Source: a virus. Taken from it: DNA of 31,683 bases. The stretch spans positions 1 through 31,683 of IMG/VR virus record IMGVR_UViG_3300047386_000170. One strand, given 5' to 3'. Below the pieces are notes generated by a model. That model did no database searches. It was given only the letters and a program-made list of their open reading frames with translations, and had not been told where the DNA came from. Positions 13,767 to 29,411 of the stretch are shown in pieces; within the stretch, counting starts at the first letter, position 1; each line of letters starts with the position of its first letter. A program made the translations under genes and the position numbers.

Positions 13767-13808
13767 ACTGGTGTCCTATCTATGGTTACTTTGGTGTCCT
13801 AGGTGTCT

Positions 13809-13885: not shown

Positions 13886-13891
13886 GCTAGG

Positions 13892-14410: not shown

Positions 14411-14470
14411 GTCTACCTCAGTCTACCTCAGTCTACCTCAGTCTACCTCAGTCTACCTCAGTCTACCTCA
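14411..14470. repeat. Six-copy 10-bp tandem repeat
   Basis: GTCTACCTCA (plus strand) is repeated six times with no mismatch from 14411 to 14470. A degenerate seventh unit, GTAAACCTCA, sits at 14401. The unit length is close to one helical turn, so any bound protein would sit on one face of the DNA. It is downstream of P3 in the non-coding region. Units are identical, without unique spacers, so this is not a CRISPR array. Confidence 0.95.
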
Positions 14471-14584: not shown

Positions 14585-14609
14585 CTTCCTTCGTATAGGG
14601 GTCTCTTAG
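14585..14609 (-). promoter_or_regulatory. Predicted phage RNA polymerase promoter P3 (late genes)
   Basis: The minus strand reads CTAAGAGACCCCTA (14609-14596) followed by TACGAAGGAAG. The 14-bp core is identical to P1 and P2. With its downstream purines it resembles SP6-type promoters (…ACACTATAGAAG). It is the only promoter-like element I find before the structural genes, so it is assigned to late transcription. Predicted from repetition and placement, not measured. Confidence 0.75.
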
Positions 14610-14637
14610 TACCTAGGTATCAAAAGGTGACTAAAGA

Positions 14638-14669
14638 GGCATCGGATACATGGGAAAAGGCATCGGATA
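14638..14669. repeat. Twin GGCATCGGATA repeat
   Basis: GGCATCGGATA occurs at 14638-14648 and 14659-14669, 21 bp apart, about two helical turns. A reverse-orientation partial copy, TATCCGATG, is at 14281-14289 on the other side of P3 and the tandem repeat. The twin copies lie just upstream of P3 with respect to its direction, where an activator or repressor could sit. Confidence 0.6.
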
Positions 14670-14689
14670 AGGGGCATATAGTGAACATC

Positions 14690-14720
14690 GGTTATCATGT
14701 AACAAAATACCTTGATAACC
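14690..14720. repeat. Inverted repeat upstream of P3
   Basis: GGTTATC (14690-14696) and GATAACC (14714-14720) are exact complements separated by 17 AT-rich bases. It could be an operator or a weak RNA hairpin. No T-tract follows, so it is not a standard intrinsic terminator. Confidence 0.5.
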
Positions 14721-14765
14721 ATAGAACTAAGGCCTATGTGCGAATCAAGGACCTAGGTCCTAGGT

Positions 14766-14816
14766 TGGTGCGGGAGAGCTAACCTTAACTCCGGTTTTAG
14801 TGTTACCCCCGCACCA
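14766..14816. other. GC-rich stem-loop downstream of the RNR genes
   Basis: TGGTGCGGG (14766-14774) pairs perfectly with CCCGCACCA (14808-14816). The 33-nt interior can form a further TAAC/GTTA helix and an AAC-CGGA-GTT tetraloop hairpin on the minus strand. No T-run follows. It is better explained as an RNA processing site, a transcript-end stabiliser or a factor-dependent stop than as a rho-independent terminator. It lies 14 nt after the 25-residue zinc-knuckle ORF. Confidence 0.6.
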
Positions 14817-14829
14817 GCTGCTTACCTAG

Positions 14830-14907
14830 TTATTCCTCAGTAAGACAGAAGCCACAGAAGTCATCCTTAGATGGGCTTCCACAGCTGACACATGTCTTCC
14901 ATATCAT
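14830..14907 (-). CDS. 25-residue double-CxxC (zinc-knuckle-like) microprotein coupled to RNR
   Basis: The ATG at 14907 overlaps the ribonucleotide reductase stop as ATGA, with AGAGGA 7 nt upstream. The frame has 25 codons and ends in TAA at 14830. It contains CVSC at residues 6-9 and CGFC at residues 18-21, separated by eight residues (GSPSKDDF), then ends LTEE. This is the spacing of a minimal zinc ribbon or of a redox-active dithiol pair. The reductase itself ends in a peptide with Cys577 and Cys588. Class II and other RNRs use C-terminal cysteine pairs to re-reduce the active site, and some carry a C-terminal CxxC…CxxC element. The microprotein may be a detached version of that tail. This role is an inference; the frame, motif and overlap are seen directly. 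Confidence 0.65.
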   Translation of the reverse strand: MIWKTCVSCGSPSKDDFCGFCLTEE

Positions 14908-16673
14908 TCACATGTCCTCTGGCCTGTCTGTGGGTCGTAGTAGCAAGCCTCAGCACCCTCAGCACCACCGATGTCAGTACCTGTGTCTTCCTCAGCCTGT
15001 GGTTCAGCTGTGTCCTCACTGGTTGATGCATTGAGGATACCGTAGCGTTTACCTGATGCTCTGAAGGTTGTGCAGCCGCTAGCACCGCCATCATAGGCTT
15101 GCATGTAGACGTCCTTGAACTGTTCCCAGGTTACATCAGCACCTACGTTGCATGTCTTAGAGCAAGCAGAGTCCACGTAGTGTGATGCTAGGTTGAGCAC
15201 TGCCACATGGTCAAACACAGAGAGGTCATCGGCCTTCTCTCCTTCGATCCCATGTACCCGGTAAGCATAGTCTTCTACTCGTTCTATCCTAGGTCCATCA
15301 AAGGTTTGGATAGTGCGGTCGTAGTAGTGGCTGAAGACTGGTTCTATCCCTGAGCTTACGTTGTCAGCTGATAGACTGATTGTCCCGGTTGGTGCTACAG
15401 ACAACAGATGACTGTTGCGGATCCCATGCATACCGATGGCTGCTTGGATGTGGTCTGGTAGTGTCTTGACGAAGTTAGACTCCAGATACTTGACGTTGTC
15501 ATAGAGCGGGAAGCTACCCTTCTCAGCTGAGAGTGCCACCGATGCCATGTAGCATTGGTCTCTGATGATAGCCATAACTTCACCCAGCTTAGCCAAGAAG
15601 CCTTCAGAGCCATACTTCAGACCCAGCGTCTCTAGGGCATTGGCTACCCCAGTCACACCTAGGCCCATCCTACGTTTATCCTTAGCTTCCTTCTCTTGGG
15701 CTGGCATCGGGTACACTGCACGGTCCACTACGTTGTCCATCGCTCGGACCACTGAAGGGATGTCTGCAGACAGCTGCTTAAGATCTAGGGAGAACTCATC
15801 TGTGTAGGGGTCTTGTCTGATGTACTTGGTCAGGTTGAATGACCCCAGCAAGCAAGCTCCGTTAGGTGGTAGTGGTTGCTCACCACATGGGTTGGTGGCT
15901 GCTATGGTCTCACAGTACCAGAGGTTATTCTTCTGGTTTATACGATCGATGAACAGGATGCCTGGCTCTGCCCAGTCCCATGTAGACCTGAGTATATCAT
16001 CCCAGAGGGCTCTGGCATCCACTGTCTTATACACTTGGCCTTCAAATGTAAGATCAAAGAAGTCACCAGTCTTAACTGCATTCATGAAGGCATCAGTGAC
16101 CCCGACACTGATGTTAAACCCTGTCAGTGTGGTGCTGTTGTTCTTTGCTCTGATGAACTCCTCGATGTCTGGATGGTCTACACGTAAGACACCCATCTGA
16201 GCCCCTCTACGGTGCCCAGCGCTGGCTATAGTCTGACAGACAGCGTCAAAGATACCCATGAAGCTGATAGGGCCTGATGACTTACTGTCGAGGCTTTTGA
16301 TCAAGGCACCACGGGGTCGTAGGGTGCTGAAGTCGTAGCCTATGCCACCCCCAAGCTGCATGGTTCTAGCTGCATTGGTAGCAGCCGCCATGATGCCTTC
16401 CATGCTGTCCTCAATGGTAGGAGACACAAAGCAGTTGTAGGGCGTCACGGTTCTGGGTGCGCCCATAGCGCTCTGTACCCTGCCAGCTGGTAGAAAGCGC
16501 TGGTTGTACAGTATGTTTCTGAAAGTATTGAAGTGATCGTCATCGTCCTTGAGGGCATTGGCTACCCTTGTCATGGCCTCTTTGAAGCTCTCGCCTACTG
16601 AGCGATACTTCATCTTATGTATTTCTTCTGAGATTGGCAGGGCTGGGCCAAAGTCGTTCTTCATGTCATTCAT
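14904..16673 (-). CDS. nrdJ: Class II (adenosylcobalamin-dependent) ribonucleotide reductase
   Basis: The protein has 589 residues from the ATG at 16673. A TTG 18 nt upstream is in frame but has no better ribosome site. It reduces ribonucleotides to deoxyribonucleotides for phage DNA synthesis. Hallmarks are Cys81 in TPYNCFVSP, the radical-site signature NPCGEQ with Cys263 and Glu265, Cys274 in NGACLLGSFNL as the likely partner, and APTGTIS at 427-433. It is a single short polypeptide with no R2 subunit gene nearby, as in B12-dependent class II enzymes of marine podoviruses such as roseophage SIO1. The acidic linker at 551-576 leads to a C-terminal peptide with Cys577 and Cys588. The start overlaps the DUF3310 stop by 8 nt; the stop overlaps the zinc microprotein. 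It implies a host that makes or imports cobalamin. Confidence 0.93.
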   Translation of the reverse strand: MNDMKNDFGPALPISEEIHKMKYRSVGESFKEAMTRVANALKDDDDHFNTFRNILYNQRFLPAGRVQSAMGAPRTVTPYNCFVSPTIEDSMEGIMAAATNAARTMQLGGGIGYDFSTLRPRGALIKSLDSKSSGPISFMGIFDAVCQTIASAGHRRGAQMGVLRVDHPDIEEFIRAKNNSTTLTGFNISVGVTDAFMNAVKTGDFFDLTFEGQVYKTVDARALWDDILRSTWDWAEPGILFIDRINQKNNLWYCETIAATNPCGEQPLPPNGACLLGSFNLTKYIRQDPYTDEFSLDLKQLSADIPSVVRAMDNVVDRAVYPMPAQEKEAKDKRRMGLGVTGVANALETLGLKYGSEGFLAKLGEVMAIIRDQCYMASVALSAEKGSFPLYDNVKYLESNFVKTLPDHIQAAIGMHGIRNSHLLSVAPTGTISLSADNVSSGIEPVFSHYYDRTIQTFDGPRIERVEDYAYRVHGIEGEKADDLSVFDHVAVLNLASHYVDSACSKTCNVGADVTWEQFKDVYMQAYDGGASGCTTFRASGKRYGILNASTSEDTAEPQAEEDTGTDIGGAEGAEACYYDPQTGQRTCE

Positions 16674-16908
16674 TGGGGTTGTTACCTTCAAGCATATTGA
16701 TACGCATCTCGCAGTAACGGATGCACTTCTCTAGATCTGTGATTTCTGATTCATTCTTGGTTAGGCCATCGTAGGTCTTGCTGCCTGCGCGGCTGGCGTA
16801 CTTGATGACATTTCCACGCCAGAACTCCATGCCGTTTCTCATGATGTATCTGACTGGCTGTATGGGCCACTGGGTGTAGTGTGATGGGTTCTTTACTGAG
16901 TCAGTCAT
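16666..16908 (-). CDS. DUF3310-like protein
   Basis: An 80-residue protein. I prefer the ATG at 16908, which has GGAG 8 nt upstream, over an earlier in-frame codon at 16944 that would lie deep inside the preceding gene. The sequence (SVKNPSHYTQWPIQPVRYIM, then GNVIKYASRAG and TDLEKCIRYCEMRI) matches the DUF3310 family, small phage proteins with the signature NPSHY…YI…GNxIKYxxRAGxK. Family members are common beside phage nucleotide-metabolism and replication genes, but I know of no established activity. It overlaps both neighbours by a few nt. Confidence 0.85.
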   Translation of the reverse strand: MTDSVKNPSHYTQWPIQPVRYIMRNGMEFWRGNVIKYASRAGSKTYDGLTKNESEITDLEKCIRYCEMRINMLEGNNPNE

Positions 16909-17107
16909 TGGCTGTCTCCAGTACTTTCCTGGGGCGTCCACCACGCTTGTTGTTTAACTCAGAGAGCCGTGCCATTGAGTTCTTTCCACCGTTACGCAAA
17001 AGGAACCTGTCGTTGTCTCTTTTGCACACCTCAAGATAGCGATCCCACTGGGATAGCACTGAGGCTTCAGTCATCCCTGTGCTACGTTTTCGTGGCATTA
17101 GTTTCAT
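16901..17107 (-). CDS. Small basic protein with AT-hook-like RGGRPRK motif
   Basis: A 68-residue protein from ATG 17107, which has GGGAG 8 nt upstream inside the end of the exonuclease gene. An upstream in-frame codon at 17158 is less likely. The product is very basic at both ends (MKLMPRKRSTGMTEASVLSQ; NNKRGGRPRKVLETAND). The GGRPRK segment resembles the minor-groove-binding AT-hook core (R/G-GRP). The middle is helical. No family is recognised. Nucleic-acid binding is a reasonable inference from charge, motif and position among replication genes. Confidence 0.65.
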   Translation of the reverse strand: MKLMPRKRSTGMTEASVLSQWDRYLEVCKRDNDRFLLRNGGKNSMARLSELNNKRGGRPRKVLETAND

Positions 17108-17870
17108 GTCTTGGCTCCCATAGTTTGATTGTGTTGTTGTCCAAGTCCCAATCCTCATACCTGAGGATCCGCGCTAGCCGGGCTTGGGTTAACGCATAGT
17201 TGGCGTTTAGTTTCTGCTTGGCATATGCGTTGACCACTGTGGGCCAACTAGGGTTTTGCTTGAGCAGTTTCTCGGCTGTCTTAGGACCGACCGAGGGACA
17301 CCCAGTGTAGCCATCAGTGACATCACCAGTGAGTGCTTGGGTGTAGAACCATAGATCCGCTTGGGCCTTGTTGATCGTTTGAAACTCACCAGACATAGGT
17401 CTGAAGAGCTTGCATGGCACCGACTTGAGATCCTTATCATCACTGATGACGATGGTTTGATGACCCGGTGCTGAACCTAAGATGCCCATGACATCATCGG
17501 CTTCCAGCATCGGCTCTATGTGCCATCGGTAAGTCTTCTTGACCCACCTCAGCATCTCCAGGTAGCCAACGGGCTTCCTGACTTTCTTACGTCCACCTTT
17601 GTATGTGGAATCTAGTTCTTTTCTGAAGTTACCTTTATCAGACAAGCAGACAATGAAGTTGCCGGTGCCTAGGTGGTCACAGAAGTCATCTATAGTCTTC
17701 TGGAATACCTTCTTGGCTTCCTTCAGATCGATAGAGAGGGACCAAATGTCATCACCCCAGTCTATCTCAGTCTCACAGGCCGCACAGGCTCTGTAGAGGT
17801 ACAAATCACCGTCAATGAGGAGTACTGTCTCTGCCTGAGGCGACTGCAAATACTTCTTTAAGTAGCTCAT
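17082..17870 (-). CDS. T7 gp6-like 5'-3' exonuclease (FEN family)
   Basis: A 262-residue protein with the metal-binding pattern of the flap-endonuclease family: Asp20/Asp22 (LIDGDLYLYR), Glu123/Asp125/Asp126 (MLEADDVMG), Asp144/145/147 (VISDDKDLKS) and Asp183/Asp186 (TGDVTDGY). A helix-three-turn-helix DNA-binding motif follows (GCPSVGPKTAEKLL). In T7 this enzyme removes RNA primers, degrades host DNA and acts in recombination and concatemer processing. The start has AGGAGA 6-7 nt upstream. It overlaps the previous small gene by 59 nt and follows DNA polymerase, as in T7. Confidence 0.92.
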   Translation of the reverse strand: MSYLKKYLQSPQAETVLLIDGDLYLYRACAACETEIDWGDDIWSLSIDLKEAKKVFQKTIDDFCDHLGTGNFIVCLSDKGNFRKELDSTYKGGRKKVRKPVGYLEMLRWVKKTYRWHIEPMLEADDVMGILGSAPGHQTIVISDDKDLKSVPCKLFRPMSGEFQTINKAQADLWFYTQALTGDVTDGYTGCPSVGPKTAEKLLKQNPSWPTVVNAYAKQKLNANYALTQARLARILRYEDWDLDNNTIKLWEPRHETNATKT

Positions 17871-18075
17871 CTAATTCTCCTTTAGCTTCCATTCCGTATT
17901 CCGTGATGATCCACTTATGGGCATAGGTTTCGTCGCCGACATTGGTTGTGATCAGGCCCTCACTGGCAGCTATGGCAACGTAGAAGGCACCTTTGCGTGA
18001 GAAGTCACCACTGATGCTGAAGGGCTGTCTCCACGCCCTGTCCAAGACCAAGTAGAAGCACATGAAGTGTGCCAT
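17812..18075 (-). CDS. Hypothetical protein between DNA polymerase and exonuclease
   Basis: From the ATG at 18075, with GAGG 10 nt upstream and just beyond the polymerase stop, the product has 87 residues. It runs MAHFMCFYLVLDRAWRQPFS, then GDFSRKGAFYVAIAASEGLI and DETYAHKWIITEYGMEAKGE, and resembles a small winged-helix or helix-turn-helix fold with a beta-hairpin. The frame stays open upstream to an ATG at 18201, which would give 129 residues beginning MSVISLEEWRKKQG, a natural-looking N-terminus, but would overlap the polymerase gene by 113 nt. I chose the shorter form. No family is recognised. Confidence 0.7.
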   Translation of the reverse strand: MAHFMCFYLVLDRAWRQPFSISGDFSRKGAFYVAIAASEGLITTNVGDETYAHKWIITEYGMEAKGELDELLKEVFAVASGRDSTPH

Positions 18076-18088
18076 CTGGGGGTTAACC

Positions 18089-19855
18089 TCAGTGTGTAGC
18101 AGCCCAAGTTGCTCCCACGGAATGTTCTGAGGTGATGGGTATTTTAGTTTTGAGAGCAACCCCTGCTTCTTGCGCCATTCTTCTAGTGATATCACCGACA
18201 TCAGTAGCTACCTCTTCTGTTTTACATGCGATTTGAACTTCATCGTGGATCCAACCAACGATGTATGCGTCACCTTCGTGATGCTTGGTTAACTCAGCAT
18301 CGACCAAGTCTACCCACTTCTTGCAGATGACAGCGCCAGATGACTGTAGAAGCTGAGAGAGCAGCTTGTGCTCACTACGGACATTCAACAGACGTCCATC
18401 GAGGCCTTTGAGGTGGCCGCGCTGGTATGCCCTGCGTAGGTTTGTCTGAAGCTGTGCAAAGGCTGGGATAGCCTTGTTGAAGTTGTCCTTGAGCTTCTTG
18501 CCTTGCGTAGCGTTGCCCCCAGCAATCTTACCGATCAGCTGATCACCGCCGCCATACATGGTGGCATAGATAAACGTCTTGGCTTGATCTCTGGTGGCTA
18601 ACCCAGCTGCCTTCTGGTTGTGCGTATGGATATCACCATCAAGCACCTGTCTTGCATACTCACCACCGTCATCAAGGTAATGCGCTAGACACCTAAGCTC
18701 TAACCCAGACAGGTCAGACCCAAGTAAACACCATCCCTCAGGAACCGTGAATAGACTACGACACTCTGAGCCGTACGGTAGGCCACACTTGGGTACCTGG
18801 GCTAGGTTGGGCCCTCGATGAGCCGCTCTTCCGCTGACAGTACCGCCAGACACGATTGTGTGTCTTATGCGGCCATCGTCATCGACACGCTTGAGCCACG
18901 CTTGTGGACCCTCAGCTAACTGGCCGATGCGCTTCTGTATTAGGAAGAACTCAGCCAACGCCTGTGCCTCAGGGTAGTGCAGCCCAGCCAGCACTGTCTC
19001 GTCTATCTGGGCGTGTCCGTTGTCCGTAAACTTCTTAGGTTTCCAGGCGTACTTCTGCTTTAGACAGAACTCTATGTGACGCCGGGAGCTAGGGTTGAAA
19101 TGGATGGCCTTACGTTTAACAAAGAGCTCACCCTTCTTGTAGCCACGGGCCCTGTTGTTGACCTTAGGATAGAAGTCTTCAGTGATCTCCCAGGGCGGGA
19201 AGAGCTCATGCAGACCATCCTCTAACTCTTGCCGCTTCTGTGCCAACTCAGAGTAGAGCTTAGTGGCCCCAGCCTTGTCGAAGGTCCAACCGTTGTTGCC
19301 AATACGGAAGCAAACCTCAGCTAACCTGTGCTCTAGGTCTATGCTTTCTTGGCTGAACCCGCTGTCCATAAACACTTGGTACAAAGTCATGGTGACAGCG
19401 GTGTCTTGGAGACAGTAGTCCAGCATCTCTTGGCTGAAGTTCTCCCAGCCACCAACGTATTCACCTTTGTATATACCGATACGATAACCCCATGCCTTGA
19501 GGCTGTGGCTACCTATGAGCTTCCGGGGGAACTCATGAGGCTTGAGTTGATGTTTGATTGTATCTGTCTCGGCTAGGGTTGTTCTCATCAACCGGGACAT
19601 GACTAATGTATCTGTGACTTTGCCTTGGATGCTAAAGTCTGGATACAGCTTCTGAAGAACAGGAATATCATAAGCTATGATGTTGTGACCGATGATTTCC
19701 TCGGCATTCATCAAGACGTACAGCGCACGGTCTATCTCATCGGGACCAAACGATAGCTTCTCGTTGGTCTCAACATGTCTCAGACAAATGCAATGTACGG
19801 TGCTTACAGTATCGAGTAGGCCGTTGCTCTCCAGGTCAAAGACCCAGCGGCTCAC
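18089..19855 (-). CDS. T7-like family A DNA polymerase with proofreading domain
   Basis: A 588-residue protein starting at a GTG within a GTGA overlap. The 3'-5' exonuclease residues are present: Asp7/Glu9 (FDLESNGLL), Asp63 (GHNIIAYD) and Asp151 (CLQDTAVT). Polymerase motifs are Asp381 (GSDLSGLELR), Lys426 and Tyr430 of the O helix (AKTFIYATMYGG) and Asp538 (WIHDEVQ). It aligns by eye through NPSSRRHI, RIGQLAEGPQAWL and the terminal WAATH with T7 gp5, which is 704 residues. Much of the shortfall is between about residues 218 and 256. In T7 that region of the thumb carries the thioredoxin-binding insertion; here it is roughly half as long. The O-helix position equivalent to E. coli Pol I 762 is Tyr. 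It is the replicative polymerase. Confidence 0.95.
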   Translation of the reverse strand: MSRWVFDLESNGLLDTVSTVHCICLRHVETNEKLSFGPDEIDRALYVLMNAEEIIGHNIIAYDIPVLQKLYPDFSIQGKVTDTLVMSRLMRTTLAETDTIKHQLKPHEFPRKLIGSHSLKAWGYRIGIYKGEYVGGWENFSQEMLDYCLQDTAVTMTLYQVFMDSGFSQESIDLEHRLAEVCFRIGNNGWTFDKAGATKLYSELAQKRQELEDGLHELFPPWEITEDFYPKVNNRARGYKKGELFVKRKAIHFNPSSRRHIEFCLKQKYAWKPKKFTDNGHAQIDETVLAGLHYPEAQALAEFFLIQKRIGQLAEGPQAWLKRVDDDGRIRHTIVSGGTVSGRAAHRGPNLAQVPKCGLPYGSECRSLFTVPEGWCLLGSDLSGLELRCLAHYLDDGGEYARQVLDGDIHTHNQKAAGLATRDQAKTFIYATMYGGGDQLIGKIAGGNATQGKKLKDNFNKAIPAFAQLQTNLRRAYQRGHLKGLDGRLLNVRSEHKLLSQLLQSSGAVICKKWVDLVDAELTKHHEGDAYIVGWIHDEVQIACKTEEVATDVGDITRRMAQEAGVALKTKIPITSEHSVGATWAATH

Positions 19856-20043
19856 TCTTCAGTTGGCCTTGCTTTGGGGCGTAGGCTACTCATGGGTGCT
19901 AAGTTCTTAGCAGGCTGTACCAGTTGCGCCTTGAAGCACTGGTCTAGCGAATGTTGATATAGGTCCTTCTGGTGTGCCCAAGACACACAGTCATCAAAGG
20001 ATTCAAAAGCCACAATGGCTACGAATGAGTTTACTAGGTTCAT
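19852..20043 (-). CDS. Small hypothetical protein upstream of DNA polymerase
   Basis: A 63-residue frame coupled on both sides: its ATG overlaps the MazG-like stop (ATGA) and its stop overlaps the polymerase GTG start (GTGA). AGGTGA lies about 6 nt before the ATG. The product (MNLVNSFVAIVAFESFDDCV … HSLDQCFKAQLVQPAKN) has an alternating N-terminal strand and two cysteines, and ends Arg/Pro-rich. No family is recognised. The tight double coupling is the main evidence that it is translated. Confidence 0.7.
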   Translation of the reverse strand: MNLVNSFVAIVAFESFDDCVSWAHQKDLYQHSLDQCFKAQLVQPAKNLAPMSSLRPKARPTEE

Positions 20044-20411
20044 CTGTTATCACCTGACCCTTCCAGCTTCCCACGCTCCTGGCGTGACTTAAGCTTCTCT
20101 AGGTTCATGTGGGCGACCTCATTAAGGCTGATGCCTAGGTCCCGTGACAGCGCAGCGATATACCAGAGGCAGTCACCAAGCTCACTAGCTATAGCAACGC
20201 GCTGGGCGTCTTTGAGGTCCTCTAGACCACTTTGGTCGATCCCGTGATCTCGGATCAGCTTCTTGATCTTGTCACAGACTTCCCCGGCTTCTGAGGCTAA
20301 CCCTAGTGCTGGGTAGACAACCTTCCACTTGTAGATGGCAGTGGCAGCTGTGTCTGCCTGGTAGTCGTTCATGGTCAGGGAATACAGATAGTCTGTCTCT
20401 CTATTTCTCAT
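20040..20411 (-). CDS. MazG-like nucleotide pyrophosphohydrolase
   Basis: A 123-residue protein with the all-alpha NTP pyrophosphatase signature: Glu41/Glu44 (ASEAGEVCDKIKK) and Glu77/Asp80 (ASELGDCLWYIAAL), which coordinate Mg2+. It then has NEVAHMNLEKLKSRQERGKL, typical of single-domain MazG-like enzymes that hydrolyse (d)NTPs or alarmones. Marine phages often carry such genes, with proposed roles in nucleotide-pool cleaning or ppGpp control. The start at 20411 has GGAGAG 5 nt upstream, so it is preferred over the later in-frame Met14, although family members usually begin near there. It overlaps the preceding gene by 11 nt. Confidence 0.88.
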   Translation of the reverse strand: MRNRETDYLYSLTMNDYQADTAATAIYKWKVVYPALGLASEAGEVCDKIKKLIRDHGIDQSGLEDLKDAQRVAIASELGDCLWYIAALSRDLGISLNEVAHMNLEKLKSRQERGKLEGSGDNR

Positions 20412-20670
20412 GTTGCTCTCCTTTTTCTAGATCCATTAGCCTCAATGCTAGGCGTGCCATTTGCTTACCCATGCCCTCTTGGACGTAACCTGTGAACAAC
20501 GGTCGGCGGTCCTTGGCGCTCAGTGCTTCGCCAGCAATCAGAGCAAAGGTTTTACCGTCATCTGGGTGGTCTATGACCTCAAAGGTTATGTGACCGACCT
20601 CATACTGCTCACGCTTGAAGGTGGTTGGCTTGGGGTGCCTTTGTTTGCTTTTGTGAGAGTGTGCTCCCAT
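20401..20670 (-). CDS. Hypothetical protein between primase-helicase and MazG
   Basis: An 89-residue protein with AGGAG before the ATG. The first 20 residues are basic and His/Lys-rich (MGAHSHKSKQRHPKPTTFKR). The centre has two short strands (VGHITFEVIDHPDDGKTFAL) and the C-terminus is an amphipathic helix (MGKQMARLALRLMDLEKGEQ). I do not recognise a family. It starts 16 nt after the primase-helicase stop and ends inside the MazG-like start, so it belongs to the replication operon. Confidence 0.75.
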   Translation of the reverse strand: MGAHSHKSKQRHPKPTTFKREQYEVGHITFEVIDHPDDGKTFALIAGEALSAKDRRPLFTGYVQEGMGKQMARLALRLMDLEKGEQHEK

Positions 20671-20686
20671 GTTTCTCTCCTCTTAG

Positions 20687-22303: not shown

Positions 22304-22500
22304 TTGTATCTCCCAAACAAAGCTTCCCACTCGGAAGGGACGATCCCAGTCATGATAAACTCACGCTCATCTACCGTCAGATGGCTGAAGACGTTCTGTG
22401 ATAATTCGCCTTCCATCCAGCGAGACATCTGATCTTCAGTGACATCCAAATCGAGCGTTAACTCTTTGCCTGTCAAAGGTGACTTGCGTTTGATTTTCAT
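22300..22500 (-). CDS. Small acidic hypothetical protein before primase-helicase
   Basis: A 66-residue protein with GGGAGA before the ATG and an ATGA overlap with primase-helicase. The sequence runs MKIKRKSPLTGKELTLDLDV, then SQNVFSHLTVDEREFIMTGI and ends EWEALFGRYK. I have the impression of a conserved small family next to the helicase in marine T7-like phages, but I know no function. It sits just after an intrinsic terminator, so its expression depends on readthrough or on phage RNA polymerase ignoring the signal. Confidence 0.8.
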   Translation of the reverse strand: MKIKRKSPLTGKELTLDLDVTEDQMSRWMEGELSQNVFSHLTVDEREFIMTGIVPSEWEALFGRYK

Positions 22501-22517
22501 GTGGTTTCTCCCAATAA

Positions 22518-22545
22518 TAAAAAAGGGGCGACCTAAGCCGCCCCC
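22518..22545 (-). terminator. Intrinsic terminator / attenuator inside replication operon
   Basis: On the minus strand GGGGCG (22544-22539) pairs with CGCCCC (22530-22525) across an 8-nt loop, followed by TTTTTTATTATT. The hairpin includes the last codons and stop of endonuclease I. It would attenuate transcription between SSB/endonuclease and the primase-helicase onwards. Confidence 0.85.
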
Positions 22546-22991
22546 TTGCTCTCCTTTGTTGTGGCTTCTTTCAGCCAGTCATCAGGTATGACCTTGTTGG
22601 CATACCTAAAGCCATGCTTCTCGCAGTAGGATGCGTAGGTGGTCTTGGACCCTTTGTAGAGCTTTGCATTCTGATTGCTGAACACGAACCTGATGTCTAA
22701 GTCAGGCTGTTGCTTTTGAATCAGAAGGTGCTTGGCTCTATCCATGACAGTCCAACGCCCCTTGGTTTCGACATAGAAAAAGCCGCCGGGTTTTGGCAGC
22801 TTAAAGTCGGGGGTGTACTTGGATTGTCTGGCGGGGATCACATAGAGGATCTTCTCGGTCTCATAGAGTAGCTCGATGCCAGCTTCTTTGATTTGCTGGG
22901 CGACCTTGTCTTCAAGACCAGAGCGGAACCCATACTTAAGACCAACCTGTTTAGAAGTCGTAGTTATCTTCTTCAGCGTCTTTGGTCTCAA
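22533..22991 (-). CDS. T7 gp3-like endonuclease I (Holliday-junction resolvase)
   Basis: A 152-residue protein. Catalytic residues of T7 endonuclease I are all present: Glu27 (FRSGLEDKVAQQ), Asp62 (YTPDFKLP), Glu75 and Lys77 (YVETKGRW). The downstream HLLIQKQQPDLDIRFVF and YCEKHGFRYANKVIPDDWLK also match the family. In T7 it cleaves branched DNA and degrades host DNA. The frame has no suitable ATG before the conserved core. The best start is a TTG at 22991 with AGGAG 9 nt upstream, inside the SSB gene (41-nt overlap). That gives an N-terminal extension of about seven residues relative to T7 gp3. Confidence 0.92.
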   Translation of the reverse strand: MRPKTLKKITTTSKQVGLKYGFRSGLEDKVAQQIKEAGIELLYETEKILYVIPARQSKYTPDFKLPKPGGFFYVETKGRWTVMDRAKHLLIQKQQPDLDIRFVFSNQNAKLYKGSKTTYASYCEKHGFRYANKVIPDDWLKEATTKESKGAA

Positions 22992-23499
22992 AGCTTTGAG
23001 CTCCTGTTACTGTGTTGGCTACATAGCCGCCCTCGACAGCATCAAAGCCACCCCCGTCACCACCGCCGCTAGACACTGGGTCAATCACTTGAACGGCACC
23101 TAGGCGCAGGCTGATGCCCTTTTTGCCAGCCGAGGTATACCCATCAGCAATGCCAGAGACACGAAGGGTAGACCCACCAAACATGGATGGTACTTGGTCG
23201 CGGGGGATAGGGTTACCTTTGGCATCAAAGTACTTAGGTTCGTACTTGGATTGGAACTTAAAGACGATCTCGCCGGTCTCTGGATCTTGATCCATAGGCA
23301 TCATCACCTTGTCCTTAGCGCCAAAGCTTTCGCTTTTGACGTTCTCTAAGATTTCCTTGAGGGACCCGGCGTTCTCTGGGGATATCTTGAGTTGCACCTT
23401 GTATTTACCCTCAGCATCAAAGGCTGTGTCTGGGCGCCCTGGTTGCAGCCACGGGTATTGTGCTGTTCCAGCTGGGCTTGTAAATCTAGCTTTGCTCAT
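22951..23499 (-). CDS. T7 gp2.5-like single-stranded DNA-binding protein
   Basis: A 182-residue protein beginning MSKARFTSPAGTAQYPWLQP, typical of the podoviral gp2.5-like family. It has an OB-fold-like beta-rich core (residues 30-140: FKFQSKYEPKYFDAKGNPI and TLRVSGIADGYTSAGKKGIS), a glycine linker (SSGGGDGGGFD) and an acidic C-terminus ending in Phe (KDAEEDNYDF). In T7 the acidic, Phe-ended tail recruits polymerase and primase-helicase. GGAGA lies 8 nt before the ATG. It is followed by endonuclease I, the T7 order, and is near the start of the transcript from P2. Confidence 0.9.
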   Translation of the reverse strand: MSKARFTSPAGTAQYPWLQPGRPDTAFDAEGKYKVQLKISPENAGSLKEILENVKSESFGAKDKVMMPMDQDPETGEIVFKFQSKYEPKYFDAKGNPIPRDQVPSMFGGSTLRVSGIADGYTSAGKKGISLRLGAVQVIDPVSSGGGDGGGFDAVEGGYVANTVTGAQSFETKDAEEDNYDF

Positions 23500-23650
23500 C
23501 TTTTTTAGTCTCCTGATTGGTTTGGTTTGATTTAGCCCCAGGCAAAGTTACCTTCGCCTCTTTGGCTTGCTTAAGAAGCCAGTCGGGGATGTCCTGCCCT
23601 TTGTTTTGGAACAGGCTACACAACCCCAAGATTTTCTCTCTTGGGTGCAT
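23486..23650 (-). CDS. 54-residue hypothetical protein upstream of SSB
   Basis: The ATG at 23650 has AAGGA 8-9 nt upstream and the frame ends at TAG 23486, overlapping the SSB start by 14 nt. The product starts MHPREKILGLCSLFQNKGQD, continues IPDWLLKQAKEAKVTLPG and ends in a hydrophilic Lys/Gln/Glu tail. The first 40 residues look like a folded helical unit. It is the first gene of the transcript from P2 (predicted start 23678, 28 nt upstream). No family is recognised. Strong ribosome site, position and overlap make it convincing. Confidence 0.75.
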   Translation of the reverse strand: MHPREKILGLCSLFQNKGQDIPDWLLKQAKEAKVTLPGAKSNQTNQETKKDEQS

Positions 23651-23671
23651 TTCGACGATCCTTTTCTGTTA

Positions 23672-23696
23672 CTTCTTCGATAGGGGTCTCTTAGTC
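23672..23696 (-). promoter_or_regulatory. Predicted phage RNA polymerase promoter P2 (replication genes)
   Basis: The minus strand reads GACTAAGAGACCCCTAT then CGAAGAAG. It contains the exact 14-bp core shared with P1 and P3. The ending CTATCGAAGAAG closely parallels the SP6 promoter end CTATAGAAGAAG, which would put the start at about 23678. It lies directly behind a strong terminator and before the SSB operon. Confidence 0.8.
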
Positions 23697-23703
23697 CCAG
23701 ACG

Positions 23704-23728
23704 TAAAAAAGGCCCCACTTGGGGGCCT
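23704..23728 (-). terminator. Strong intrinsic terminator after the RNA polymerase region
   Basis: On the minus strand GGCCCC and GGGGCC form a 6-bp GC stem around a 5-nt loop (23727-23711), followed by six T. It would stop transcripts from the early region immediately upstream of P2, as at the T7 early/middle boundary. Confidence 0.92.
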
Positions 23729-23742
23729 CTTTGGTTTGTCAA

Positions 23743-23780
23743 AATCCCAACCTAAATTAATTTAGATGGGCATTGGGATT
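23743..23780 (-). other. Hairpin preceding the terminator
   Basis: AATCCCAA and TTGGGATT are exact 8-bp complements enclosing the palindrome CTAAATTAATTTAG. It begins 3 nt after the stop of the 80-residue gene and stands in series with the terminator at 23704-23728. It could protect the early mRNA 3' end or be an RNase III site. Confidence 0.7.
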
Positions 23781-23782
23781 AA

Positions 23783-24025
23783 CTAATTACCGTGAACTGG
23801 TTCTCTAATCACTGTGACCAAACGATGTAATATCTTCCAGTCAACACACTGGCACCAGTCTTCTCTCATGAGTTCTAACTGTGACATGGCTTCTTCAGCT
23901 GACTTTGGTGGGTCGAAAAGTTCTGTCTGTGACTCCATGAACTCTTCCCAGTAATATATCCCGTCACCTTGGTATACCTGACCAAAGATGACGTACTCTT
24001 CATATGTCCTTAGTTTAGGCTCCAT
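23783..24025 (-). CDS. Hypothetical protein downstream of RNA polymerase
   Basis: An 80-residue acidic protein from ATG 24025, which has AGGAG about 6 nt upstream inside the polymerase stop region. A GTG ten codons earlier is rejected. The sequence has YEEYVIFGQVYQGDGIYYWE, a run of acidic helices (SAEEAMSQLELMRED), then CQC, and ends VIREPVHGN. No family is recognised. T7 phages often carry small inhibitors of host enzymes just after gene 1, so a host-takeover role is possible but unsupported. It is the last gene before the early terminator. Confidence 0.7.
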   Translation of the reverse strand: MEPKLRTYEEYVIFGQVYQGDGIYYWEEFMESQTELFDPPKSAEEAMSQLELMREDWCQCVDWKILHRLVTVIREPVHGN

Positions 24026-24035
24026 GTCTTCTCTC

Positions 24036-26519
24036 CTAAGAAAAACAGTATTCACTGTCGCGGATAGCGCTGATGTCTAGGTTACCTTTGGCTGGCACCG
24101 GGGGTAGGTCCATGTCTGGGTTAGACAATCGATCCCGGCATTCCTTCTCAAAGTTCGCAAAGACGCACTGGTCCTCATACATGTTCACAAAAGCATCTCG
24201 GATGCAGTGGTAGAACTTCCATGTCTTATCGATAGACGTCCCAAAGCTGTCATGGATCATAAAGAAGTCTTCCACGCCATTCTCTAAGCCCTCGCAAATA
24301 GACAAGTGCATGTGGGCGGCATCTAGACTGTGGATGGCATTAGGACTAACCCCATTCCTAGATTTCCTTGTGTCAAACACAGAACCAAAGCTACTCACGT
24401 TAACCCTAGTCTCTTTCCGCAGCTTGGCCTCTCGATCCCAAAGGAAGATCCTCACACGCTTAACGTCAGCCTTAGTGTAGCGCTGGACAACAGGAAAGCC
24501 TGAGGGTGACGTCCAACGTACCGACTTGCTTTCCCTAGCCAGAGCATCCGCATATGCTTGGTAGAACTCCATGCCAGACGCCACTGACTTAATGACTGTC
24601 TGCACCGCCTGGTAGTTAACCTTAGCCAAGAACCTAGCATAAGACTCTTGTTCTCTACGGCTTACACCAAACGGATGCTTATTAAGCTCACCATAGCTCA
24701 CAGCCTTCTGTAGGGGCTGCATGAGGTCCTCTATCAGTTGATCACCAAAGCCTCTCTCAGCTGAACTGTAGCCATACGTCATGACGTTACGTTTGACCGT
24801 AGATCGACCGACACCAAAAGACAGCCAGACCTTAGCCTCTTCAGAGTCATCTAGCTTAAGTAGCCTGTTAACTTCATCAGCAACCACCTGGTAGACGTCT
24901 TGGCATTCGTCTGATGGTGTTAGGTTAACCATAGCTCCGTCTTCGTGACGCAAGGCAGCTGCATAGTGTTGCACCCCAGAGTTAGTGCCATCCAAGCTTA
25001 TCGGAAGGTGACAGACGTAATCCTCAATGCCTTGGTCTTGAAGCTTCTTGTATTCCACGCAGGCAGCTAAGAACTGGAAGGGCTTGTCAGCCTTAGACCA
25101 GATGTCGAAAGAAGCCTTGAAGTCTGAAGCCACACTTAAGATCATAGGCTCGTTGTCCAAGCACCATTGGATCCTGTCTTCTAAGGACTTCTTAGAGATC
25201 TTATCAAAGTCACCTACGTTGGCTAAGTGAATAGACAACCAACCAGCATCACTCTCCTCGATCTTCTTGCCTCTAGCAAACATGAAGAGCGACTTTATGT
25301 GATCATTGCGATGGTAGTTGAAGCTGGAGACAGGATACATTCGGCCTCTAAAGTCCAAAGACCAACCAATGTAGAATTCGTCAAACTTAGACATCTCCCT
25401 AGCATCATGTAGATCACAGGCTATGACTTGGACGTTGGCCTTAGCCTCAATCCTTTTGACATGCCAAGCCTTCTGGTCTTTCCTGATTTGCTGAATGTAT
25501 TCCTCAGAAAAACCAGAGGTGTCCTCAGGGAGCCTAGGTAACTCTGGTGGCTCCATCTCTGGAAACTTACCAAAGCGCTTCCCTTCTTCAGAAACCCATT
25601 CCAACGCAGCTAAGGTAGTAGGGTTTACCTTAAGAGGGGTGGCTTGGAGTGCGTTCAAAGCTTGTAGATACTTAGGTTGACCATACTTCAGACTGTTGTC
25701 TATAGCCCTGCGCTGTTCCCCGGTAGACTTACGCACCAGGGGCACCAGCGAGGACAAGACGTCATCAAGGTAGACACCAGTGTCAAAGTCTTCCCAAGGT
25801 GTCGGGGGAACCACCATTGGCCCAAACATAGGTGTGGCCCAAGCCTCTCTTTCAGTCATCGACAGAAGATGCTCGCTGGCCTCATCGGTCAACTCAAGTG
25901 ACCTCAGCGTCTTAAGGTTTACTGTTGTCTCAACAAGGTTGAAGACACCAGAATACTCTAGGATGGCGCTTAGGATTGGAGCAGCAACTGCTACTCGCTT
26001 TCTCATAGACCACTTGCTGACACTATAGCCTTCCTTATCTGCAATGATACGCATGGCTTTGAAGCGATAGCGTTCACTTGAGTGAGCCTTAGTGACTTGG
26101 GTAGACAAACGCTTAAAGAGATCCTTGTCATGTGTCTGCAGGCCTTCAGCCCACTTCTCATGCTCGACCCTAGAACCAATGTTGCTCAGGGCACCAGTGA
26201 GTAGGTTCGTATGTAAGACAGCGTCAAAGCAACAATTGAGACCAATGTATGCTAAGACGTCAGGATCTTGGTTCTCTAACTCCTCGTACCAAACTGATTT
26301 CTTACCACAGCCACTAGAGAACCTCTGTAAGTCTTCTTGTAGTGCTAATGTTATTGCGTCTGATACCTTCGGGAGTGCCTCTACGATGATCCGATGTGGG
26401 ACCTCTTGTTGGCTTGGTTTTTGTTTCTCTTGTCTTCCCTGGTATCTCTCGAAACCCTTAGATTTCATTTGCTGCTCGATGCGAGTCTGATGCTCGCTTA
26501 GGGTATTAAGTGTATTCAC
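24036..26519 (-). CDS. Single-subunit T7-like RNA polymerase
   Basis: An 827-residue protein (T7: 883) from a GTG at 26519 that overlaps the leader ORF stop (GTGA). Catalytic residues are visible: Asp510 (ISLDGTNSGVQHY), Lys576 and Tyr584 (STVKRNVMTYGYSS), His756/Asp757 (FMIHDSFGT). The DFRGRMYP motif and the terminal NLDISAIRDSEYCFS (T7 ends ESDFAFA) also match. It transcribes phage genes from its own promoters. The presumed specificity-loop region (about 685-715: VKRVRIFLWDREAKLRKETR) differs from T7's, consistent with a different promoter sequence. The next in-frame Met is codon 18 and lacks a ribosome site. Confidence 0.96.
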   Translation of the reverse strand: MNTLNTLSEHQTRIEQQMKSKGFERYQGRQEKQKPSQQEVPHRIIVEALPKVSDAITLALQEDLQRFSSGCGKKSVWYEELENQDPDVLAYIGLNCCFDAVLHTNLLTGALSNIGSRVEHEKWAEGLQTHDKDLFKRLSTQVTKAHSSERYRFKAMRIIADKEGYSVSKWSMRKRVAVAAPILSAILEYSGVFNLVETTVNLKTLRSLELTDEASEHLLSMTEREAWATPMFGPMVVPPTPWEDFDTGVYLDDVLSSLVPLVRKSTGEQRRAIDNSLKYGQPKYLQALNALQATPLKVNPTTLAALEWVSEEGKRFGKFPEMEPPELPRLPEDTSGFSEEYIQQIRKDQKAWHVKRIEAKANVQVIACDLHDAREMSKFDEFYIGWSLDFRGRMYPVSSFNYHRNDHIKSLFMFARGKKIEESDAGWLSIHLANVGDFDKISKKSLEDRIQWCLDNEPMILSVASDFKASFDIWSKADKPFQFLAACVEYKKLQDQGIEDYVCHLPISLDGTNSGVQHYAAALRHEDGAMVNLTPSDECQDVYQVVADEVNRLLKLDDSEEAKVWLSFGVGRSTVKRNVMTYGYSSAERGFGDQLIEDLMQPLQKAVSYGELNKHPFGVSRREQESYARFLAKVNYQAVQTVIKSVASGMEFYQAYADALARESKSVRWTSPSGFPVVQRYTKADVKRVRIFLWDREAKLRKETRVNVSSFGSVFDTRKSRNGVSPNAIHSLDAAHMHLSICEGLENGVEDFFMIHDSFGTSIDKTWKFYHCIRDAFVNMYEDQCVFANFEKECRDRLSNPDMDLPPVPAKGNLDISAIRDSEYCFS

Positions 26520-26629
26520 TCCACGCCCCCCTCAAATGACCACTCAGTCTTTGGTGGAGCCTGGTGTGGGTCACTCCAACTACTTGCGCTGCGACCGTGG
26601 CAGCTACCGTCCAAGTTAGGCTGTTTCAT
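26516..26629 (-). CDS. 37-residue leader ORF coupled to RNA polymerase
   Basis: The ATG at 26629 has GGGAG 8 nt upstream. The frame ends with TGA at 26516, overlapping the polymerase GTG as GTGA. The peptide begins MKQPNLDGSCHGRSASSWSD and ends TEWSFEGGVE. It is polar, with Pro and Trp and no membrane segment. It lies about 25 nt downstream of P1. Since the polymerase uses a GTG start, reinitiation after this peptide may set polymerase dosage. Coding status rests on ribosome site and overlap, not on homology. Confidence 0.6.
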   Translation of the reverse strand: MKQPNLDGSCHGRSASSWSDPHQAPPKTEWSFEGGVE

Positions 26630-26653
26630 CTTTAGTACTCCCGTGTATTTCTC

Positions 26654-26672
26654 TTTTAGGGGTCTCTTAGTC
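26654..26672 (-). promoter_or_regulatory. Predicted phage RNA polymerase promoter P1 (own gene)
   Basis: The minus strand reads GACTAAGAGACCCCTAAAA, including the exact 14-bp core of P2 and P3, followed by the purine-rich GAGAAATA. It sits between integrase and the leader ORF/RNA polymerase, so the polymerase would transcribe its own gene. The bases after the core are AAAA rather than TATC/TATA, so strength may differ. Confidence 0.75.
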
Positions 26673-26717
26673 AAACCCTTGATATCATTAGTTTATTTTA
26701 GAGGCCAAAATGGGCCC

Positions 26718-27539
26718 CTAAGATAGCATCTGATGTGCTATTTCTTGCAGCGTCTCTGGTTTTTCGTGGACGTACTTAGCGGTCGTTTGACCACTACGGT
26801 GACCTAAGATCCTTCCGATCAGCACCGTGTTTACTTGCAGGTCATTAGCCATGTAGGTGGCGGCTGTGTGACGTAGGGTGTGAAAGACAAAGCTACTGTC
26901 GTTTGGTGCAATCTGTCTACGTGCTTCAGCCCACGAATTGTAAAACTTACGGTGCGAGTGATGCTTTTTTGGGCAGAAGTCTAACTCCTGTAAAGCTGCG
27001 TAGACACTTTTGGGGCACGGGACCATTCTATCGTCCCCGTTCTTAGTATCACTCAGGGATATCCAAGTGCCAGCCGAATCGGTGACAACCATTTCTGGGG
27101 TTATGCTGAGGATCTCACCAAGTCTCATTCCCGTGCCGACACCGATGGCAACCAAGTGCTTCATCCACCAGTGCTGGTGCCCATCAAAGAACGCCTTAAG
27201 TAAATCAAGCTCACCAGCATCCATCCAGCGCACCCGGCCACCCTTGATCTTAGCGAAGGTAATCTTGGGTGCCTTCTCGACAATCTCTAGATCCAAGGCT
27301 TGCTTATAGACGCGGCTGATAGCTGCCTTGTAGTGGTTGATGGTGTTCTCACACAGCCCCTGCTCTTGTAGGTGGCCCACGTAGTCGTGGATGTCCACTG
27401 CAGTGATCTTGTCTAAGGGCTTCTTCCCGATACCTTGGAAAGCACTGAACCGCGCCAGTTTGGCTGTCGTTTCTGCTAGGTGTTTCCCAGACCACATCCG
27501 GGTGGCCTCTTTGTTAACGAAGTCAATAAAAGTAATCAT
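26718..27539 (-). CDS. int: Tyrosine-family site-specific integrase
   Basis: A 273-residue protein with the complete catalytic set: Arg139 (GTGMRLGEI), Lys166 (SDTKNGDDR), His220/Arg223 (FHTLRHTAA), His247 (LGHRSGQTT) and Tyr256 (AKYVHEKP). The N-terminal 90 residues form the core-binding SAM-like domain (AETTAKLARFSAFQGIGKKP and ENTINHYKAAISRVYK). It catalyses integration and excision between attP and a host site; the tRNA-like core lies 440 bp upstream. The ATG overlaps the preceding stop (ATGA). It marks the phage as potentially temperate. Confidence 0.96.
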   Translation of the reverse strand: MITFIDFVNKEATRMWSGKHLAETTAKLARFSAFQGIGKKPLDKITAVDIHDYVGHLQEQGLCENTINHYKAAISRVYKQALDLEIVEKAPKITFAKIKGGRVRWMDAGELDLLKAFFDGHQHWWMKHLVAIGVGTGMRLGEILSITPEMVVTDSAGTWISLSDTKNGDDRMVPCPKSVYAALQELDFCPKKHHSHRKFYNSWAEARRQIAPNDSSFVFHTLRHTAATYMANDLQVNTVLIGRILGHRSGQTTAKYVHEKPETLQEIAHQMLS

Positions 27540-27727
27540 AGCGCTGGGCCTTTCTCACAAAAGTCAACTCTACGAATATAAACTTTGAGATGGTGACCTA
27601 GACGCCCCCAAGTTTTGGCTGAACGCGTTATAGACATCATATCAACATCACTGTCGCCATCATAAGATTTACTTTTATGGATAGTCTCGCCATCCTTGTT
27701 CATCACAATTAAACAATAGTTATTCAT
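27536..27727 (-). CDS. Small hypothetical protein coupled to integrase
   Basis: A 63-residue protein from ATG 27727 with GGGAG 8 nt upstream; an in-frame TTG at 27742 is less likely. It runs MNNYCLIVMNKDGETIHKSK, then SYDGDSDVDMMSITRSAKTW and HHLKVYIRRVDFCEKGPAL. Predicted strands and one helix suggest a small alpha/beta fold. Its ATGA overlap with integrase means the two are made together. That raises the possibility of an excisionase or directionality factor, but no helix-turn-helix is evident, so the role is open. Confidence 0.7.
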   Translation of the reverse strand: MNNYCLIVMNKDGETIHKSKSYDGDSDVDMMSITRSAKTWGRLGHHLKVYIRRVDFCEKGPAL

Positions 27728-27743
27728 CTGTAAGTCTCCCAAC

Positions 27744-27926
27744 TTATGACGCTATGACGTTGTGTGTGTCCCAGGCGGCATCCCTGATCGCTTGGTCTAT
27801 AGCCTCATCGCGGCTAAGAGTGGTCTGGTAGCTATCGAGGCTGCAGACACGGCAGTACTCAGTGACGGTAACGGCGTTACCCCAGCGGCTATCGTCAACG
27901 TAGGTTATGCAATTGCAAGTCATCAT
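27744..27926 (-). CDS. First early-gene protein, Cys-rich N-terminal half, unknown
   Basis: A 60-residue protein starting at tandem ATGs (27926, 27923) behind AAGGAGA. Four cysteines fall in the first half (MMTCNCITYVDDSRWG and EYCRVCSLDSYQ), compatible with a small zinc site or redox pair. The second half is an acidic helix (RDEAIDQAIRDAAWDTHN). It is the first gene after the attachment site. Its ribosome site lies inside an inverted repeat at 27934-27948. No family is recognised. A regulator or anti-host factor would fit the position but is not shown. Confidence 0.65.
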   Translation of the reverse strand: MMTCNCITYVDDSRWGNAVTVTEYCRVCSLDSYQTTLSRDEAIDQAIRDAAWDTHNVIAS

Positions 27927-27933
27927 CTAGTCT

Positions 27934-27948
27934 CCTTGTTGTACAAGG
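27934..27948. promoter_or_regulatory. Inverted repeat over the ribosome site of the first early gene
   Basis: CCTTGT-TGT-ACAAGG (plus strand) is a perfect 6-bp inverted repeat with a 3-nt centre. It overlaps the AAGGAGA of the gene starting at 27926. It could be a repressor operator, or an mRNA hairpin that masks the ribosome site. Confidence 0.5.
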
Positions 27949-27977
27949 GTGCTGATGTTTCCGATGATGACTTTGGT

Positions 27978-28032
27978 TGGTAGCGGAGGAGGGACTTGAA
28001 CCCCCGACACGCGGATTATGATTCCGCTGCTT
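27978..28032 (-). other. Predicted attP core: 3' part of an elongator tRNA-Met (CAU) gene
   Basis: Read on the minus strand, this segment has an anticodon arm GCGGA-ATCATAA-TCCGC with anticodon CAU, a variable loop, a T arm (GGGGG-TTCAAGT-CCCTC), a 3' acceptor strand CTCCGCT, discriminator A and encoded CCA. I recognise it as the 3' part of alphaproteobacterial elongator tRNA-Met. The 5' part is not a tRNA: the D arm does not pair, and the first two acceptor positions of CCCGGAG (28050-28044) mismatch. A tRNA 3' half next to a tyrosine integrase is the usual form of attP for phages that integrate in tRNA genes and restore the gene on insertion. The exact crossover point is not determined. Confidence 0.85.
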
Positions 28033-28116
28033 ACCCCTGTCATCTCCGGGCCATCGACCCTTGATCATCAGATAGTAAATCCCGATGCATAAATCAAGAA
28101 GTTTTTGTCTCAAATG

Positions 28117-28134
28117 TATATAGGGGGCTCTTAG
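28117..28134 (-). promoter_or_regulatory. Predicted variant phage promoter P4 upstream of attP
   Basis: The minus strand reads CTAAGAGCCCCCTATATA, one mismatch from the 14-bp core of P1-P3, with TATATACATTTGAGAC downstream. The flanking GGG makes GGGCTAAGAGCCC a small hairpin, so a terminator or operator role is possible instead. It would drive leftward transcription across attP into the early genes. Confidence 0.5.
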
Positions 28135-28213
28135 CCCAACCCCAGTTGAAAAAACACCGATCACTTCGTCAGCGTAAACTGATGGAAGCTCCGATGTTAG
28201 TTGGGTCATCTTC

Positions 28214-28294
28214 CTAAGTTTTCTTAATTAGTAAGACAACCAGCATACCGATCATAATGGCGTCAGTAATGGGGACAGGAAATCCAGAGATCAT
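28214..28294 (-). CDS. 26-residue single-membrane-span peptide
   Basis: The ATG at 28294 has AGGGGG 5 nt upstream and the frame ends at TAG 28214. The peptide starts MISGFPVPITDAIMIGMLVV and ends LLIKKT, a short hydrophobic helix capped by two lysines, as in tiny phage lysis or membrane peptides. It follows the endolysin gene after 62 nt. It could be an auxiliary holin/antiholin or a membrane modulator of early infection. Coding status rests on the ribosome site and the clean membrane-peptide pattern. Confidence 0.55.
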   Translation of the reverse strand: MISGFPVPITDAIMIGMLVVLLIKKT

Positions 28295-28320
28295 GAATAC
28301 CCCCTTTCTCTTGTGTTGAG

Positions 28321-28347: not shown

Positions 28348-28356
28348 ACTGTAGCC

Positions 28357-29410: not shown

Positions 29411-29411
29411 T

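Follow-up and report, generated by a model that had tools for sequence, protein, structure and literature searches.

Four Motif Copies Mark the Gene Modules of the Viral Genome

The viral record analyzed here (referred to as the window, i.e., the whole stretch of 31,683 bases, which is linear in its present form), a phage genome of marine type, encodes a T7-type RNA polymerase (RNAP) and carries four copies of a short motif between its genes. This arrangement raises the question of whether the motif represents the promoter recognized by the encoded enzyme, as had been proposed in a sequence-only reading of the same DNA, and how the genome would be divided into transcription units. Based on comparison with related loci, the four copies are very probably promoters of the phage-encoded polymerase and would serve a module-by-module transcription scheme.

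Scanning of the record recovered CTAAGAGACCCCTA exactly at three sites (P2, P3 and P4) and with one mismatch at a fourth (P1), which reproduces the positions reported before (Table 1). As previously claimed, all four copies share one orientation, namely that of the recognized genes, which are all encoded on the minus strand. No further copy with up to two mismatches was found in the record, and none on the plus strand; accordingly, the motif is equally frequent neither within genes nor on both strands. With three mismatches allowed, eight matches were obtained versus 3.2 expected, so that the weaker matches represent noise. Among 14-mers occurring at least three times on one strand of the window, only the motif with its one-nucleotide shifts and a 10-nt tandem array were observed, whereas none of 200 first-order Markov resamples contained any 14-mer three times. 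The copies are intergenic in substance. P1 and P3 overlap only mechanically called ORFs (28209-27895 and 23742-23548, respectively), which are not credible since the former reads through the tRNA-derived attP core and the latter through the terminator hairpin and the motif. The 104-aa mechanical ORF at 27895-28209 (minus strand) holds the translated 3' half of a tRNA (NPRVGGSSPSSAT) and represents an annotation trap, not a gene.

In gene direction, P1 is followed by the attP core, two small ORFs, the integrase gene, P2 and the RNAP gene. Downstream of the latter, a small ORF, an intrinsic terminator conserved in clade A, and P3 are located, followed by genes for a single-stranded DNA-binding protein (SSB), endonuclease I, primase-helicase, DNA polymerase, exonuclease and ribonucleotide reductase, and finally by P4. 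Approximately 0.8 kb of mostly non-coding DNA lies between P4 and the first long late gene. The position of the SSB gene matches that of the annotated SSB gene in phage CRP-125. As had been assumed, each copy precedes a functional block; for P1, this block consists of attP and the integrase gene rather than of the early genes assigned to it.

Table 1. Features of the window discussed in the text.
Feature	Position	Strand	Remarks
P1, variant motif copy CTAAGAGCCCCCTA	28121..28134	-	one mismatch; upstream of attP and integrase module
attP core, 49-nt 3' half of alphaproteobacterial tRNA-Met(CAT)	27978..28026	-	
Tyrosine integrase	26718..27539	-	Pfam PF00589, E 1.2e-17; PHROG integrase
P2, motif copy upstream of RNAP gene	26657..26670	-	exact motif
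Single-subunit T7-type RNA polymerase, 827 aa	24036..26519	-	Pfam RNA_pol; T7 RNAP match
RNAP residues 56-82 (codons), aligned to T7 AT-rich recognition loop	26274..26354	-	
RNAP residues 193-210 (codons), beta hairpin aligned to T7 intercalating hairpin	25890..25943	-	
RNAP residues 678-716 (codons), specificity loop	24372..24488	-	hairpin 682-695/700-715
Intrinsic terminator, boundary of RNAP block and P3	23706..23732	-	11-bp stem and T run, -19.1 kcal/mol
P3, putative promoter of SSB/replication block	23681..23694	-	exact motif
SSB, first gene 3' of P3	22951..23499	-	Pfam PF10991, E 1.8e-5, just under cutoff
P4, putative promoter of late (tail, packaging, portal) genes	14596..14609	-	exact motif

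Being repeated, non-palindromic, intergenic, on the gene strand and ahead of modules, the sites show traits of T7-type promoters. That family is characterized by a conserved core CACTA at -7 to -3 (PMC13029058), whereas the core found here is CCCCTA, and other clades feature CACCC, CCCCC or CCACC. Judged by its bases, the motif family is a diverged T7-type promoter that lies outside the CACTA class. Among copies and clades, the assignment of +1 carries an uncertainty of 1-2 nt. P1 has no G at +1 and carries the recognition core GAGCC in place of GAGAC, and it is probably a weaker promoter than the other copies for these two reasons. A parallel to the SP6 promoter (CTATCGAAGAAG) had also been drawn. 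It held for P3 only and was confined to -5 to +7, that is, mostly to initially transcribed bases; SP6-like recognition bases upstream of the start were absent, and the other copies did not follow it. As far as sequence comparison indicates, the likeness is superficial.

The mostly non-coding stretch downstream of P4 contains an approximately six-unit tandem array of the 10-nt sequence TGAGGTAGAC (14400-14470, minus strand), and related arrays occupy the equivalent place in several relatives. Between the ribonucleotide reductase gene and P4, a long GC-rich hairpin (GGTGCGGG..CCCGCACC; 14755-14825, minus strand) without a T run was observed, which has tRNA-like ends yet received no tRNA call. 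Neither an Rfam family nor a tRNA gene was detected in the window.

The phage shares the RNAP gene and the order of the T7-like replication module with the Autographiviridae. It was not assigned to this family since a clear likeness to T7 is lacking in the genes for packaging and virion structure. The terminase large subunit is nearest to that of roseophage CRP-7 (41%), and T7-like phages are absent among the matches listed; the portal protein matched phrog_1216, a different portal family, best and phrog_332, a head-tail adaptor family, weakly. The structural and packaging genes within 1-14000, located beside the T7-like replication module, give the genome the appearance of a mosaic podovirus. 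The late block also encodes a 1707-aa protein (3948-9071, minus strand), possibly an ejected internal virion protein.

The Encoded RNA Polymerase Possesses the Promoter-Reading Elements of the T7 Enzyme

The RNAP was identified by Pfam (RNA_pol, E 2e-88) and by a phmmer search of PDB sequences (T7 RNAP, E 6e-92). Its AlphaFold model (pLDDT 86.8) retrieved T7 RNAP structures as top Foldseek matches, including the T7 RNAP-promoter complex 1cez (TM 0.68). Alignment and model together revealed the specificity loop, the AT-rich loop and the intercalating hairpin, the latter with predicted strands 193-200/203-210. The specificity hairpin is long, exceeding that of T7 by a few residues (3-residue gap in T7 in the alignment). 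These features identify the enzyme as a T7-type single-subunit RNA polymerase. Among phage records, the best level of identity is approximately 30%, observed for the enzyme of pelagiphage Eistla.

The specificity loop of T7 RNAP (residues 739-770) reads promoter positions -11 to -7, with N748 contacting -10/-11, R756 contacting -9 and Q758 contacting -8 (PMC5937735). Furthermore, the T7 substitution N748D switches the enzyme to the T3 promoter, and R746A is inactive (PMC11477551).

Motif Variants Differ between Polymerase Clades

Scans of viral contigs yielded 115 distinct polymerase loci. The motif, with up to two mismatches, was detected in 22 of 30 contigs tested, in nearly all cases on the polymerase strand. 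Copies within one genome mostly share a single variant, and the variant changes from one polymerase clade to another: L016, L017 and L023 carry CTAAGGGACCCCCA in every copy, and L019-L021 carry CTAAGAGACCCC(T/C)T. In remoter clades, a different repeated pair flanks the RNAP gene (e.g., ACTTCTGTCCCCCTATCG, TTTGTCCACCTTTAG, GATCAGGTACCCTATTG and CCTTCTGTCCACCTACC), and clade-specific pairs bracket this gene in most lineages. Around the RNAP genes of L033 and L034, whose products are 45% identical to that of the window, no convincing promoter pair was found. An unrestricted search for repeated 22-mers was swamped by coding repeats and was replaced by direct comparison of the polymerase flanks.

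The four-site layout recurs in relatives, among them a longer one (39.9 kb) in which all four sites are retained with at most two mismatches. Copies distant from the polymerase gene precede late or integrase blocks. At P4, the motif is kept while its upstream flank diverges among relatives. In 16 contigs, many of which are closely related and from which the consensus itself was derived, 50 copies with up to two mismatches were counted on the polymerase strand and two on the opposite strand. Both exceptions stand at the late blocks of G028 and G029 (L097-L100), where the late block is inverted relative to the replication genes and the late promoter is inverted with it. The proposed tracking of gene direction by the promoters thus holds even in rearranged genomes.

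For Limnohabitans phage YIMV22061 (L119), an aspartate was noted at the RNAP position corresponding to T7 N748, and the repeat flanking its RNAP gene (ATTAACCCCCACT) resembles the T3 promoter; T3 polymerase likewise has D748.

Polymerase and Promoter Change Together

In order to relate polymerase residues to promoter bases, a set of approximately 104 polymerase-promoter pairs was used, most of which are related (about 32 effective sequences at 90% identity). A mutual-information scan of 806 alignment columns against 17 promoter positions ranked residue 697 and position -11 first. A tree-based count of co-changes over 206 branches, comprising 10,848 column-position tests, placed the same pair at rank 1 (residue 697 aligned to T7 Q758; p = 2.8e-9), followed at rank 2 by residue 682 (T7 R746) and position -10 (p = 2.5e-7); both remained below 0.05 after multiplication by the number of tests, and all p values, which assume independent columns and an equal chance of change per branch, are best read as rankings. 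Covariation of the motif with the specificity loop, suggested as a check in the sequence-only reading, is therefore present, the top two tests falling into this element. Together with the clade-specific variants, it supports the motif family as the promoters of the encoded enzyme. Residue 697 pairs with -11, whereas T7 Q758 contacts -8; the alignment near the loop tip is uncertain since the loop is longer than that of T7.

At the level of regions, the AT-rich loop was associated with -17 to -14 (p = 8e-7; wide definition, T7 85-110), the specificity loop with -13 to -9 (p = 2e-10) and, weakly, the intercalating hairpin with -4 to -1 (p about 1e-3). This diagonal stayed significant even after a 1-nt shift of two clades with an ambiguous start. 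Sliding windows without pre-named regions identified residues 56-82 as best for -17 to -14 and residues 677-698 as best for -13 to -9; the hairpin window ranked only third for -4 to -1. The promoter segments thereby line up, in the order expected, with the elements by which T7 RNAP contacts its promoter.

Moreover, individual residues could be linked to bases. The residue pair 682/684 accompanies the base at -10, and residue 699 that at -7, with zero exceptions in the set: G-10 is found with R682 or A682, T-10 with E/K682 plus K684 as well as with K682/R684, and C-10 with Q684 or Y684; at -7, A accompanies Q699, and C accompanies K699 or R699. G-11 is found with K684 or Q684, and for R684 and Y684 the base at -11 depends on residue 697. 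Rules based on a single residue are incomplete, as all four bases occur at -11 among polymerases with R684. The pair 684/697 supersedes an earlier rule, according to which residue 684 alone sets -11 (K=G, R=A) and to which L152 and L156-L160 did not conform. The rule table is partly fitted, as the register of clades C and D was shifted for it after the sequences had been inspected. For L267 and L268, which lay outside the scan and whose RNAPs are 75-77% identical to that of L058, the rules predict from E682, K684, R697 and K699 exactly the G-11, T-10 and C-7 observed; the sister L058 (A682, R684) has G-10. The single candidate promoter of L042 also agrees with the rules, which hold only in part for the distant isolates CRP-125 and Eistla.

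Even with genuine promoters, the residue-to-base rules could reflect shared ancestry instead of direct contacts, a reading we consider unlikely but the most serious of those competing here. The set comprises few deep clades in which many residues are fixed, and neighboring columns correlate, as shared ancestry would predict. The tree-based test, on the other hand, counts branches and not taxa, the best columns lie in elements corresponding to those by which T7 RNAP contacts DNA, each with its own promoter segment, and switches recur among close relatives (L037/L038, L035/L045, L060/L063, L019/L016 and L058/L267).

The Attachment Site and a Proposed Transcription Scheme

An integrase gene and an attP core matching a host tRNA gene are traits of temperate phages. 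P1 is conserved in clade A relatives, and matching copies are present in clade B and B5 genomes; in those checked from clades A, B and B5, the attP core lies 97-108 nt downstream of P1. Relatives of clades A and B that possess P1 have an identical core (49/49), and one B5 genome matches it at 45/49 positions. Of 385 genomes of Alphaproteobacteria, the class of a Rhizobiales genome, 77 contain the tRNA 3' half with at most one mismatch, and ARAGORN called tRNA-Met in all four alphaproteobacterial loci tested. The tRNA core thus suggests a host among the Alphaproteobacteria. In one scan of genomes for an integrated copy, the sole match was an RNAP of 27% identity from a Rhizobiales assembly; the respective contig of a Rhizobiales bacterium (L249) is possibly a prophage.

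For the promoters, a recognition sequence of approximately -16 CTAAGAGACCCCTA(T/A)N -1 is proposed, after which transcription would begin at a nearby purine. The polymerase would read -17 to -14 by its N-terminal AT-rich loop and -13 to -9 by the specificity hairpin, and the intercalating hairpin would melt the DNA at -4 to -1. Host RNA polymerase would make the first RNAP molecules. With P2 placed on the RNAP gene itself, the enzyme would then boost its own production by positive feedback. The terminator would end the RNAP block and keep it apart from the replication unit, for which P3 would restart transcription, and P4 would drive a single long late unit; this succession may also set a temporal order. 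On the free genome, the presumably weaker P1 would drive the att/int segment. Given that the attP core is the 3' half of tRNA-Met, integration at this gene would place int next to the host tRNA sequence and separate it from P1, which would come to sit at the other prophage end, facing outward.

Four intergenic copies in an integrase-bearing phage, with P1 on one side of the att/int segment and P2 on the other, could also suggest that the motif serves a phage repressor or another DNA-binding regulator, e.g., of lysogeny, as its operator and merely lies near promoters. This explanation is very improbable, as the motif is non-palindromic, keeps a fixed orientation to the genes, is inverted where genes are inverted, and differs between clades in step with the contact regions of the polymerase; an operator may nevertheless overlap the promoter. 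A promoter for a host sigma factor, or an element for RNA processing or termination, is more improbable still: the sites are intergenic and directional, P3 follows a terminator hairpin and P2 is predicted to form a small hairpin, but this hairpin is not common to the other copies folded, no sigma-70 type hexamers at the sites and no clear host promoter were found in the scanned region 23500-31683, and uniformity within genomes with clade-specific change alongside the phage polymerase would be unexpected for a host factor.

Returning to promoters of the encoded RNAP, a more far-reaching version combines a largely readable loop code (682/684 for -10, 684/697 for -11 and 699 for -7) with a P1 that acts as an integration-coupled switch losing int. 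This combination is put forward as a tentative possibility. If the code is true, promoters could be predicted from metagenomic polymerases, and new specificities would arise via coordinated swaps.

Comparison with Known Systems

Phage RNAP-promoter pairs are workhorses of biotechnology, but few natural pairs are known and their joint change is little documented. The group described here offers approximately fifty distinct loop/promoter combinations and may be a source of orthogonal promoters. Some combinations involve closely related polymerases with differing promoter bases and represent natural experiments by which the specificity code is directly testable. T7-type polymerases with their own promoters are known, as is a promoter at the RNAP gene in phages LUZ100 and KP34. 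No earlier description was found in the literature consulted of these promoter families with a C-rich core, of RNAP gene bracketing across many marine lineages, of the attP-proximal promoter or of the residue-base pattern.

With T7, T3 and SP6, the phage has in common the polymerase fold and its motifs, a promoter strand that follows the genes, and a conserved promoter of approximately 17-23 bp read by the AT-rich loop, the specificity loop and the intercalating hairpin. It differs from them in its CCCCTA core and GAGAC recognition bases, and in the pair of own promoters bracketing the RNAP gene; such a repeat pair is absent around the RNAP genes of T7 (82 bases upstream compared), T3 and SP6.

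The T7-like Pseudomonas phage LUZ100 possesses an integrase gene and a phage-specific promoter upstream of its own RNAP gene, and positive feedback on RNAP synthesis was proposed for it (PMC10134795). The integrase gene beside the RNAP gene and the phage-type promoter upstream of the latter are shared with the window. In LUZ100, a MarR-like regulator gene transcribed from a host promoter precedes int; no such regulator was recognized here, and a phage-type promoter precedes attP and int instead. In Klebsiella phage KP34, too, the RNAP gene was described as having a phage promoter linked to it (PMC6834552), but that phage has two unrelated promoter classes, whereas every copy in the window belongs to one class.

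Similar in organization are Roseobacter phage CRP-125 and pelagiphage Eistla, which have the gene order RNAP, SSB, endonuclease I and primase as here and DNA polymerases 46-47% identical to that of the window. In both, the RNAP gene is flanked by a repeat pair of their own, a feature also found in a Limnohabitans phage. CRP-125 additionally encodes its integrase ahead of the RNAP. Both isolates differ from the window in their promoter sequences, and CRP-125 in its T7-type structural genes. These comparisons suggest that in many marine T7-type phages, unlike in T7, the RNAP gene is under the control of its own promoter, with an integrase gene alongside in several of them.
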